Shown in pieces: positions 3,787 through 7,037 of a DNA stretch of 21,744 nt. The position numbers were made by a program, and so were the translations under genes. Source of the stretch: Candidatus Binatia bacterium (GTDB lineage: Bacteria > Desulfobacterota_B > Binatia > UBA9968 > JAJDTQ01); the NCBI GenBank assembly GCA_022827045.1, contig JAJDTQ010000166.1, positions 1 to 21,744 of the forward strand, read 5' to 3'. The notes beneath the pieces were generated by a model. That model was not told the DNA's origin and searched no databases. It was given only the letters and a program-made list of their open reading frames with translations. Numbering within the stretch: the first letter of the stretch is position 1; each line of letters begins with the position of its first letter.

Positions 3787-4734
3787 TTAGCTATGAGCCA
3801 CGGGTTCCCATAGACGGGTCCGCGGCGCGCGGTTCAGGAACTGCACGAACGCCCGCGGCACTGGCGCCAGCGGGCGTTCGCGGTGGGTCACCTGGTAGAA
3901 GGGGCGCACCAGGTCCAGGCCCTTGACACGCACCTCCTTGATCAGGCCCTGCTGGACCTCGCGCCGGATGGCGGCGCGGGAAAGGACGGAGAACCCGAAC
4001 CCCTCCATGAGCGCCTCCTTTACCGCGGCGGTGCTGCCGAGCTCCATTCCCACCTTGAGGAACCGCTCGGGCTCCCCGCCGCGCCTGGCCACGAGCTGCA
4101 GGAACGAACGCAGGGTCCCGGACCCGCCCTCCCGGGAAATGAACGGCTCTTTGCCGAGGTCCTGGAGCGCCACCTGCTTCAGGCCCGCCCAGCGGTGGTT
4201 CGGGGGCACCGCCACGATCATCTCGTCCTGCCACGTCTTGCGGTACATCAGCCGCTCGTCGCGCGTGCGGAAGCCGGTGAAGCCCAGCTCCAGCGTGCCG
4301 TCGAGGATTGCCGCCACGATGGCCGCGGAATCGCCGATGCGGAGCACCGGCCGCACGTCCGGAAAGCGCGCCACGAAGCTTCCCAGAACGCCCGGCAGGA
4401 TGTACTCCCCGGGGACGTTGCTGCCGCCCAGCCGCAACTCCCCTTCCACCTTCCCCTGGATGCGGTCGAGCGCCGCCAGGGCCTGGTTCTTGAGCTTCAG
4501 CACCGCGCCTGCCTGCTCGTACAGCAACCATCCGGTGGAGGTCAGGTCGAACCTGCCGCCGGAGCGTCTGAAGAGCTTGCACCCCAGTTGCTGCTCGAGG
4601 CTCTGGACGTGGGCGGTCACGGTGGGCTGCCTGAGGGAGAAATGCTCCGCCGCGAGCGAGAAGCTGCGCAGCTCCGCCACCCAGTAGAAAATCTCGAGCT
4701 TGCGAAGATCCAGGTCCCTCGAACTCTTGGCCAT
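3787..4734 (-). CDS. LysR-family transcriptional regulator (CysB-like; possibly selenium-associated)
   Basis: A 315-residue DNA-binding regulator. A winged helix-turn-helix occupies about residues 7-67 (LRKLEIFYWVAELRSFSLAA, then LRQPTVTAHVQSLEQQLGCK and LFRR). A LysR effector-binding domain follows, with GELRLGGSNVPGEYILPGVL, FPDVRPVLRIGDSAAIV and LGKEPFISREGGSGTLRSF. The ATG at 4734 has GGGAGAG ahead of it; a longer open frame upstream is a shadow of the divergent gene. The gene is directly upstream of, and on the same strand as, phnDCEE and divergent from ygfZ, so control of the importer is the simplest guess. The PGEYILP and RIGDS segments resemble CysB/CysL-type regulators and, from memory, the LysR group described as associated with selenium metabolism. 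The effector is unknown. Confidence 0.88.
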   Translation of the reverse strand: MAKSSRDLDLRKLEIFYWVAELRSFSLAAEHFSLRQPTVTAHVQSLEQQLGCKLFRRSGGRFDLTSTGWLLYEQAGAVLKLKNQALAALDRIQGKVEGELRLGGSNVPGEYILPGVLGSFVARFPDVRPVLRIGDSAAIVAAILDGTLELGFTGFRTRDERLMYRKTWQDEMIVAVPPNHRWAGLKQVALQDLGKEPFISREGGSGTLRSFLQLVARRGGEPERFLKVGMELGSTAAVKEALMEGFGFSVLSRAAIRREVQQGLIKEVRVKGLDLVRPFYQVTHRERPLAPVPRAFVQFLNRAPRTRLWEPVAHS

Positions 4735-4752
4735 GCTCTCTCCCGTGTCTAG

Positions 4753-4768
4753 CGGGCTGCGGAGCCCG
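4753..4768. repeat. Perfect inverted repeat in the lysR-ygfZ divergent gap
   Basis: CGGGCT (4753-4758) and AGCCCG (4763-4768) form a six-base perfect inverted repeat around GCGG. It lies in the 73-base gap between the divergent lysR and ygfZ starts. A wider imperfect pair, CTAGCGGG (4749-4756) and CCCGGCTAG (4786-4794), surrounds it. It could be an operator or a hairpin in the lysR leader. No convincing -35/-10 pair is seen on either strand, and ygfZ has no clear ribosome-binding site. Confidence 0.35.
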
Positions 4769-4807
4769 TTGCCATGCCGCACCAACCCGGCTAGTGTAGT
4801 CTTCGCC

Positions 4808-5869
4808 ATGAAGATATCGCCCCTCGCCGACTTCCACAAAGAGAACGGCGCGCACTTCGTCGAAAGAGAGGGATGGAGCCTGCCGGCGCACTTCGGCGAC
4901 CCCGGCGCGGAATACGACACGGTGCGCTCCGCCGCGGGCTGGCTGGACCTGGCCGACCGGGCCATTCTCTTCGTCTCGGGTCCCGACAGGGTCGAGTGGC
5001 TCCAGGGAATGCTGTCCAACGACGTCGAGGCTCTCGATCCCGGCGAGGGAATACCCGCGGCGATCCTGAACATTCAGGGCAAGATCCTTGCGGACGTGCG
5101 GGTCTTACGCACCGCCGATGCCTTTCTGCTGGAGCTGGACGAGCCGCTCGCGGCGGGTGCGCTGGAGCACCTGAACCGCTACCTGATCGCCGACGAGGTG
5201 GAGATTTCCAACCTCTCGGACGAACTGGCGGTGATCTCCATCCAGGGACCGGAGGCGGAGACGGCACTATCCGGGCTTCTGGAGGTGCGTTCGCTGCCGG
5301 CCGGAGAGCTGGGCCATGAGGAAGTGGAATGCGCCGGCGAGCGGCTCCGGGTCGTCCGCGCGACCCATACCGGAGAGCCCGGATTCGATCTCGTGGCGGC
5401 CAGGGGCAGGGTCGCGGCCATGGCGGGGCTCCCGCAAGCACGCCGCATTCCGTGGATCGGCTCGGAAGCGAGGGAGACCCTGAGGATCGAGGCCGGGATA
5501 CCCCGGTACGGAGTGGACATGGACGCCGACACGCTCCTCCTGGAGACCTGTCTCGACGACGCCGTCAGTTTCACCAAGGGATGCTATCTGGGGCAGGAAA
5601 CCGTGGAACGCATTCATTCCCGGGGCCACGTGAACCGCAAGCTCGTGGGGCTCACGGCCGAGGGAGACACGGTGCCGGTTCCGGGCGCCCCGGTCCTGGT
5701 CGACGAACGTCCCGTCGGCCGCATCACCAGCGCCGTGCCCTCGCCGCGGCTTGGCCGCCCCATCGCCCTCGGCTACGTCCATCGCGATCACATCGCACCG
5801 GGCAGCGCCGTCCTGATCGGACACGGGGACGAGGAAATCGCCGCCTCGGTCCGTGCCCTGCCCTTCTGA
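4808..5869 (+). CDS. ygfZ: YgfZ/GcvT-like folate-binding protein (iron-sulfur cluster maintenance)
   Basis: A 353-residue cytoplasmic protein of the glycine-cleavage T-protein superfamily. YgfZ proteins use folate to help repair or assemble certain iron-sulfur enzymes and do not cleave glycine. The family signature KGCYLGQE is present with its key cysteine at residue 259, followed by TVERIHSRGHVNRKLVG. Upstream are FVSGPDRVEWLQGMLSNDV and LNIQGKILADVRVL, typical of the N-terminal domain. The chosen ATG (4808) gives the normal N-terminus MKISPLADFHKENGAHFVE; the open frame extends upstream into lysR but that part has no family similarity. No Shine-Dalgarno sequence precedes the ATG, so it may be weakly translated or leaderless. 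It is the only complete plus-strand gene here. Confidence 0.9.
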   Translation: MKISPLADFHKENGAHFVEREGWSLPAHFGDPGAEYDTVRSAAGWLDLADRAILFVSGPDRVEWLQGMLSNDVEALDPGEGIPAAILNIQGKILADVRVLRTADAFLLELDEPLAAGALEHLNRYLIADEVEISNLSDELAVISIQGPEAETALSGLLEVRSLPAGELGHEEVECAGERLRVVRATHTGEPGFDLVAARGRVAAMAGLPQARRIPWIGSEARETLRIEAGIPRYGVDMDADTLLLETCLDDAVSFTKGCYLGQETVERIHSRGHVNRKLVGLTAEGDTVPVPGAPVLVDERPVGRITSAVPSPRLGRPIALGYVHRDHIAPGSAVLIGHGDEEIAASVRALPF

Positions 5870-5879
5870 ATTGCCCGGC

Positions 5880-5912
5880 AAAAAAACAGGGGCGACGCGC
5901 GCGCCGCCCCTG
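5880..5912 (-). terminator. Intrinsic terminator for the peroxiredoxin transcript
   Basis: On the minus strand an eight-base perfect stem (CAGGGGCG with CGCCCCTG, 5887-5894 and 5905-5912) encloses a GC-rich ten-base loop and is followed at once by seven Ts (5886-5880). It lies 33 bases after the stop of the selenocysteine peroxiredoxin and 11 bases after the stop of the convergent ygfZ. It probably ends the long minus-strand transcript. The plus-strand hairpin lacks a T-run, so it is a poorer terminator for ygfZ. Confidence 0.85.
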
Positions 5913-5944: not shown

Positions 5945-6403
5945 CTAGAGCTTGTCCAGCTCGGCCAGCAGGTCGCTGTTCTCGGGGATACCGCCCTCGT
6001 AGACCTGGGCGAACCGCACGGTCCCCTGCTTGTCGATGATGAAGACCGCCCTCTTGGGGAAACCCTGGTCGCGCAGGCAGTCGTACTGCTCGCACACCGC
6101 CCCGTGGGGAAAGAAATCCGAAAGCATCGGGAAGCTGATGCCGCCCATCTGCTCCGCAAACGCCTTGTGGGCGAACACCGAATCAACACTCACGCTCAGG
6201 ACCTGAGCGTCTTTGGCCTCGAAGCTGGCCTTGTCAGCCTCGAAGTTGCTCAATTCCCGCTGTCAGCCGCCGGTGAAATCCAGCGGATAGAACGCCAGCA
6301 CGACGTTCTTCTTGCCCGCGTAGTCGCTCAGGGACACGTTCTCTTCCCGGGTGACCGGCAGGCTGAACTCGGGGGCCTTTTCCCCCACGTTTGGCATCGC
6401 CAT
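5945..6403 (-). CDS. Selenocysteine-containing AhpE-like peroxiredoxin (in-frame TGA = Sec at residue 47)
   Basis: A thiol-type peroxidase that reduces hydrogen peroxide and organic peroxides in the cytoplasm. Reading through one TGA (6265-6263) gives 152 residues, the normal length for AhpE-like peroxiredoxins (153 in M. tuberculosis). Before it stand [13 protein letters not shown] and [11 protein letters not shown]; after it [14 protein letters not shown], then [20 protein letters not shown] and [10 protein letters not shown]. The TGA codon occupies the peroxidatic-cysteine site: Pro40, Thr44 and residue 47 make the P-x3-T-x2-C motif, and Arg118 is the conserved active-site arginine. Cys104 and Cys109 could form a selenenylsulfide with Sec47. 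The ATG at 6403 has AAAGGAGA eight bases ahead. No other stop or frame change occurs. A candidate SECIS hairpin follows the TGA, and a terminator follows the gene. A recent nonsense mutation is the alternative but would have to hit exactly the catalytic codon. Confidence 0.87.
6217..6245 (-). promoter_or_regulatory. Putative bacterial SECIS element inside the peroxiredoxin gene
   Basis: In the mRNA, CUUCGAGGCUG pairs along its full 11 bases with CAGCUUCGAGG (nine Watson-Crick pairs and two G-U pairs), closing a seven-base loop ACAAGGC. The stem starts 17 nt after the UGA and the loop starts 28 nt after it, within the range where bacterial SECIS loops are recognised by SelB. If the closing G-C pair opens, the loop begins with G, another feature of bacterial elements. 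The hairpin lies entirely in coding sequence (residues 53-63), as is normal in bacteria. Pairing was worked out by hand, with no energy calculation. Confidence 0.65.
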
Positions 6404-6431
6404 CAAACGATCTCCTTTCTGAAATGTAGAA

Positions 6432-6484: not shown

Positions 6485-7030
6485 CTAACACACTTGCCCC
6501 TCCCCATAAAGGCGCTCGAATTCCTTGAGGGCTTCCACCGTGCTGGGAAACGCCAGCTCGTCCCAGGGAATCCGCGCCAGCGGGAAGGTTCCGGCCTCGG
6601 TGCTCTCGTCCCCGGCGGCGAGGACTCCTCCCATCACTTCCGCCACGTAGACGATGATCACGTTGGGCGAACCGGGATAGGAATAGACCCCCAGGAGCGA
6701 CCTCGTCTCCACTTCCAGGTGGCTTTCCTCCAGGGTCTCCCGCACCGCCGCCTCGGTGGTGCTCTCGCCGCGGTCCACGTAGCCGCCGGGGAAGACCCAC
6801 TTCCCCATGGCCGGCTCGATGCCGCGACGCAGCAGCACCACGCCGCCGTCCAGCGTGCAGATGGTTCCGGCCACCACCTTGGGGTCCTGGTAGAAAATGA
6901 ACGAACACTTCTCGCAGACCAGCCGTCCGGGCTCGTTGCTCTTGAGGACGCGTCGCACCAAGGACCCGGCGCAACGAGGACAGAAGCGGTAGCCGCCGCC
7001 TCCGTGATGATGGCCGTGGTGGTGATTCAT
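6485..7030 (-). CDS. Nudix hydrolase with zinc ribbon and histidine-rich N-terminus
   Basis: A 181-residue enzyme that probably hydrolyses a nucleoside diphosphate linked to another group (for example NADH, ADP-ribose or an oxidised nucleotide). The N-terminus starts HHHGHHHGGGG, an unusual metal-binding-looking run, then a zinc ribbon with Cys17/Cys20 and Cys39/Cys42 (CPRC and CEKC). The Nudix box runs from Gly83 to about residue 105: GGYVDRGE, then REtlEE with Glu98, Glu101 and Glu102 as likely metal ligands. The ATG at 7030 has AAGG five bases ahead; a GTG two codons upstream overlaps that site and is less likely. The gene follows the secreted hypothetical gene by 7 bases and precedes the peroxiredoxin by 81. 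The exact substrate cannot be read from the sequence. Confidence 0.85.
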   Translation of the reverse strand: MNHHHGHHHGGGGYRFCPRCAGSLVRRVLKSNEPGRLVCEKCSFIFYQDPKVVAGTICTLDGGVVLLRRGIEPAMGKWVFPGGYVDRGESTTEAAVRETLEESHLEVETRSLLGVYSYPGSPNVIIVYVAEVMGGVLAAGDESTEAGTFPLARIPWDELAFPSTVEALKEFERLYGEGQVC

Positions 7031-7037
7031 GTCCACC

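Follow-up and report, generated by a model that had tools for sequence, protein, structure and literature searches.

An AhpE-type peroxiredoxin gene of a Candidatus Binatia bacterium with an in-frame TGA that very probably encodes selenocysteine

Can a TGA at the catalytic position of an otherwise normal peroxiredoxin frame be a sense codon? The question is raised by a 21,744-nucleotide stretch of DNA from a Candidatus Binatia bacterium (assembly GCA_022827045.1, contig JAJDTQ010000166.1; hereafter the window), whose minus strand carries a gene resembling that of the peroxiredoxin AhpE with a TGA at residue 47, the place of the peroxidatic cysteine. The original prediction, made from the letters of the window, held this frame to be intact but for the one TGA, and the TGA to encode selenocysteine (Sec, U). 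Our re-reading of the minus-strand frame agreed: positions 6403-5945 run from MAMPNVG to LAELDKL and a terminal stop, with TGA as the sole internal stop. The joined protein matched the Pfam family AhpC-TSA (PF00578) at 8e-38 over residues 6-131, with the TGA inside the match, and it displays the peroxiredoxin motif Pxxx(T/S)xxC, with U for C, together with the conserved Arg. Conservation of the codon, sel genes in relatives and a conserved hairpin support the Sec assignment; we conclude that the TGA very probably encodes Sec at catalytic residue 47 and that the gene would thus specify an AhpE-type selenoprotein.

Conservation of the TGA codon

A scan of the genome collection gave 51 loci encoding a relative of the protein. 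All 12 loci with 72-99% identity (4 in records titled Candidatus Binatia, 8 in records titled Deltaproteobacteria) had TGA at residue 47, as did three distant loci (L017, L024 and L038); the remaining 36 had Cys there. Homologues with Cys and homologues with U aligned at this residue, either of which the original prediction had counted on, were therefore both found (36 and 15 loci). G003 is a genome titled Candidatus Binatia; a draw of 98 genomes from its class yielded 11 matches at 64-93% identity, each with exactly one TGA, at residue 47; five of these 11 genomes overlap with the 12 of the close relatives.

A single error would leave a lone stop in such a frame, whether the codon was TGC or TGT and the gene is now decaying, or the assembly or base calling misread it. 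All 12 close loci share the TGA, and its conservation at 64-99% identity refutes this explanation for practical purposes. Because TGA also occurs in the near-identical (99%) loci L001 and L002, both from metagenome-assembled genomes (MAGs), a base-calling error is very unlikely. Among the findings that the original prediction had named as refuting were TGC or TGT in place of the TGA and further stops in close relatives; the first is answered by L001 and L002, and no second stop occurred in the aligned frame among the 12 close loci or the 11 class matches. The rate of nonsynonymous change (dN) was below that of synonymous change (dS) both before and after the TGA against 10 of the 12 relatives, the exceptions being L002, with one nonsynonymous and zero synonymous changes 5' of the TGA (dS 0), and L008, in which dS was saturated on both sides. 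Both halves of the gene are under purifying selection, which argues against decay, as does the scarcity of other stops: among 150 listed PF00578 matches from 12 genomes chosen for TGA-bearing matches, only one of the 84 bearing a TGA also carried a TAA, and none of the 84 a TAG. A pseudogene or sequencing error is, in our estimate, extremely improbable.

In the protein databases, where we considered the best 120 of 1433 matches, 79 of those listed start after the TGA (68-94% identity), at six different query positions. Four Joint Genome Institute (JGI) proteins (P0002-P0005; 72-78% identity) and P0053 (50%) have Trp at residue 47, as gene calling with TGA read as Trp would give. The best Cys form among the listed matches had 53.6% identity. 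Since close relatives have TGA throughout, the AhpE-type branch appears, from these alignments, to be Sec-only, with databases holding mostly fragments of it.

Selenocysteine machinery and the hairpin after the TGA

We scored sel genes against curated cut-offs in the genomes of the 12 closest relatives. selA, selB and selD were each above cut-off in 11 of the 12, and selD contained one internal TGA in each of its 11 genomes. selC, encoding tRNA-Sec, passed in nine, scoring 73-78 bits against a cut-off of 47, a lenient one that 5 of 14 control genomes pass. In G009 a single contig carries all four genes within 5 kb. In the class draw, 34 genomes had a TGA-bearing match among those listed, and 33 of them have selB, versus 43 of 64 others (Fisher p 0.0006, in a test that ignores relatedness and MAG completeness and rests on the matches listed). 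The original prediction had pointed to the sel genes as a check, and in the relatives it held for most genomes, failing for selC in G001 and G012 and for all four genes in G010.

These genes bear on the possibility that TGA is read as a residue other than Sec, either Trp under genetic code 4, as the four JGI proteins would have it, or Cys. A code change to Trp is rejected because TGA terminates 8 of the 16 genes in the window. The Sec machinery of the relatives, with its tRNA-Sec, and the TGA in selD itself also argue against Trp or Cys, and Trp is incapable of peroxidatic chemistry. We consider such a reading exceedingly unlikely.

A hairpin resembling a bacterial selenocysteine insertion sequence (bSECIS) follows the TGA. 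The 50 nucleotides from the TGA fold with -17.6 kcal/mol (z -2.6), a value equalled or bettered by 3 of 200 shuffles. Across 19 aligned relatives, 16 of them distinct, the 11-bp helix had 88.1% standard pairs versus 24-54% when slid, and 7 of its 11 pairs were without any unpaired cell. Pair 22/48 was CG in seven, UG in five and UA in four; pair 30/40 was UA in seven, CG in five and broken in four. Percent paired and the covariation score exceeded all 500 shuffles, and the number of double-change cells all but 2. When 39 TGA genes were compared with 28 Cys genes, mean z was -0.98 versus -0.29 after the codon (p 0.017) and -0.35 versus -0.50 before it. The bSECIS model, as given in the text of PMC13188914, places the loop 16-37 nt from the UGA and gives it a length of 3-9 nt with a G in its first two positions, on an upper stem of 4-16 bp. 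With its free-energy term excluded, the stem of 10-11 bp and spacing of 27-28 nt lie within these limits, and the 10-bp form has the G. The window gave no match in a scan with Rfam at gathering thresholds.

Several observations weigh against Sec insertion at this codon. The first 40 nt after the TGA alone are not exceptional (z 0.39), and because an equally good fold against shuffles (z -2.64) comes from the 60 nt that precede the TGA in the window, the window's single z-score after the TGA is not special. Alignment rows L091-L094 break pairs 28/42 and 29/41, as judged by eye. Two of the five measures failed against shuffles: pairs with a double change were as numerous in 189 of 500, and further pair types in 500 of 500. 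RNAalifold returned a stem of only 7 bp with no compensatory double change in any pair, the 11-bp form does not provide the G that the bSECIS model calls for, and the folding edge of TGA genes over Cys genes after the codon is only slight. We take the hairpin as modest evidence, supporting but not decisive for Sec. As to the machinery, ARAGORN found no tRNA in the window, and selC above cut-off was absent from G001 and G012. The main exception is G010, which has the TGA gene with selA, selB, selC and selD all below cut-off. TGA occurs in 7 of the best 14 of its 15 AhpC/TSA matches, one of the 7 being a 58-residue piece; given so many TGA-bearing matches, the absence of the sel genes is probably a gap in its MAG. 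Several TGA-bearing peroxiredoxin genes of G010 were among the loci examined (L010, L090, L117, L135 and L139).

The failure to detect sel genes in G010 would also suit a locus that makes two proteins, a 46-residue N-terminal peptide ending at the TGA and a 102-residue C-terminal protein from a TTG at 6253, with Sec rare or absent. The latter open reading frame is in the mechanical list for the window, and the 79 database records begin after the TGA. These records begin, however, at six query positions, as forced gene calls would; both halves are conserved; and because the family match spans the TGA, neither half holds a complete domain. Two proteins are therefore very unlikely.

Active site and TGA-bearing peroxiredoxins of the class

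Pro40, Thr44 and Arg118, family motifs that the original prediction had recognized in both halves, are present in the window protein and in 18 of 18 distinct clade members. Conservation of two cysteines is unequal: Cys109 is found in 17 of the 18 members and Cys104 in 15, with at least one in every member. Both are candidates for a putative resolving thiol, Cys109 being the better kept. Position 104 is also a Cys in 13 of 38 Cys-type rows and 2 of 44 other Sec rows, and position 109 in 2 of 38 and 0 of 44; the Cys-type rows rule out these cysteines as a mark of Sec enzymes only.

SelB and Sec-tRNA, recruited by the hairpin 3' of the UGA, would insert Sec at residue 47. By analogy with the family's chemistry, Pro40, Thr44 and Arg118 would then hold the selenolate of Sec47 as it attacks peroxide to give a selenenic acid. 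This could be reduced by the protein's own thiol, Cys109 (Cys104 in the single member that lacks it), and then by a thioredoxin- or glutaredoxin-like partner; alternatively, an outside thiol may reduce the selenenic acid directly. From known chemistry, Sec would be expected to make the enzyme a fast peroxidase.

A mycothiol/mycoredoxin partner, as in the database name mycoredoxin-dependent, is unsupported. MshC was above cut-off in 0 of 12 genomes, in a search aimed at MshC itself. Strong sub-cut-off matches occurred in 10 of the 12; the three of these that were fetched look by eye like cysteinyl-tRNA synthetase and so lend mycothiol no support; the TGA flagged in one fetched MshC-like locus falls before its likely start. 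GshB, the sole glutathione route searched, was above cut-off in two of the 12 genomes.

The wider set of TGA-bearing peroxiredoxins was taken from 12 genomes chosen for known examples (G002, G003, G004, G009, G010, G035, G049, G056, G081, G092, G098 and G109). Of their 159 AhpC/TSA matches, 150 were listed, and 84 of these have one internal TGA, 4-12 per genome and distributed among several peroxiredoxin branches, a share that is no estimate for the class since the genomes were chosen for such matches. The position of the TGA was checked only in fetched loci. Of 63 aligned class loci, fetched mainly for TGA, 53 had it at 47, five were of a UxxC type and five were Cys forms. Motifs among the fetched loci were FTGG-U, WTPT-U, FTPG-U, FTFV-U, DTPG-U and U-PYC. 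L130, L135 and L136 share FTFV-U-PTEINEF, with TGA at the peroxidatic place, a motif that we take to resemble typical 2-Cys (Prx1/AhpC) enzymes.

A tree of 54 rows with Sec and 56 with Cys implied 10 Sec/Cys changes, at least four of them forced by well-supported (starred) branches. The 13 Sec-AhpE rows grouped with a Shimodaira-Hasegawa-like approximate likelihood ratio (SH-aLRT) of 93, not starred, and deep branches were unsettled. A Cys form, L106 (G072), is nested among Sec forms and is possibly a recent Sec/Cys switch. Two MAG titles look doubtful: L019, titled Streptomyces griseus, groups with Chitinophagaceae, and L024, titled Bordetella parapertussis, falls among the Sec forms of the class.

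This set suggests that uncultured bacteria of the class put much selenium into peroxide defence. We put forward tentatively, as a possibility short of even, that Sec has become the norm at the peroxidatic position in much of the class's peroxiredoxin repertoire, and that the AhpE-type branch, with no Cys form known, turned from a 1-Cys into a Sec-Cys enzyme resolving via Cys109 or Cys104, without mycothiol.

The features of the locus are collected in Table 1. Start codon, ribosome-binding site and terminator, all claimed by the original prediction, could be located in the sequence. Of 18 loci of differing length, 17 have the NUDIX gene upstream and 15 the convergent GcvT-like gene. Together with the relatives of up to 99% identity, this common gene order points to a Candidatus Binatia bacterium as the source. 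Between L003 and the window, identity was 93% for the peroxiredoxin, 87% for NUDIX, 76% for LysR and 72% for GcvT.

Table 1. Features of the peroxiredoxin locus in the window
Feature	Position	Strand	Basis or remark
AhpE-type peroxiredoxin coding sequence, 152 residues, probable U at residue 47	5945..6403	minus	frame, Pfam, alignment, model
In-frame TGA at the peroxidatic Cys position, very probable selenocysteine codon	6263..6265	minus	context FTGG-U-QREL
Start codon ATG	6403-6401	minus	
Ribosome-binding site AAAGGAGA, 7 nt 5' of ATG	6411..6418	minus	by eye
Terminator-like GC-rich hairpin and T run, between convergent genes	about 5880..5910	minus	by eye
NUDIX hydrolase gene, upstream neighbour	6485..7036	minus	kept in relatives
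GcvT-like gene, convergent, downstream neighbour	4700..5869	plus	kept in relatives
SECIS-like hairpin, stem 10-11 bp, loop 7-9 nt, first stem base 17 nt past TGA	6217..6245	minus	fold z, pair counts, partial bSECIS model fit

Comparison with known peroxiredoxins

In sequence and in predicted fold (monomer model), the protein is nearer to AhpE than to other peroxiredoxin subfamilies. Mycobacterium tuberculosis AhpE (Rv2238c; PDB 1XXU, 4X0X, 5ID2) is a Cys peroxiredoxin, whereas the window protein would have Sec at the peroxidatic position; in the alignment, its Cys104 and Cys109 correspond to Ser and Val of AhpE. The mycothiol/mycoredoxin partner of AhpE is a further point of difference, being unsupported here.

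Against the PrxU family NF040737, linked with Eubacterium acidaminophilum, the window protein scored 84.2 bits; the cut-off is 270, so it stands outside that family. Sec at the peroxidatic position in a TxxU motif would be common to both.

Published surveys list peroxiredoxins among bacterial selenoprotein families and describe the TxxU motif (PMC1088965, PMC9312934, PMC13188914); the Sec peroxiredoxins they cover likewise have TxxU but are assigned to COG1225 (Bcp) or to PF00578. In the main text of two of these reviews (PMC13188914, PMC9312934), neither AhpE nor Binat- occurs as a word, and no selenoprotein literature on Binatota or Binatia was found among open-licence PubMed Central papers. 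The same three sources describe peroxiredoxin-like selenoproteins with UxxC as a known type. That type also occurs in the class, in five fetched loci among the AhpC/TSA matches; its TGA lies three residues before a Cys in a thioredoxin-like motif, whereas that of the window gene is at residue 47.

With the window gene, the Sec peroxiredoxins gain an AhpE-type branch in which all relatives detected at more than 60% identity retain Sec, and which databases contain almost only as post-TGA fragments or with Trp. It is an AhpE-type branch of a known kind, the Sec peroxiredoxins, and belongs to a notable group of TGA-bearing peroxiredoxins, which lends itself naturally to the question of when one fold favours Sec over Cys.
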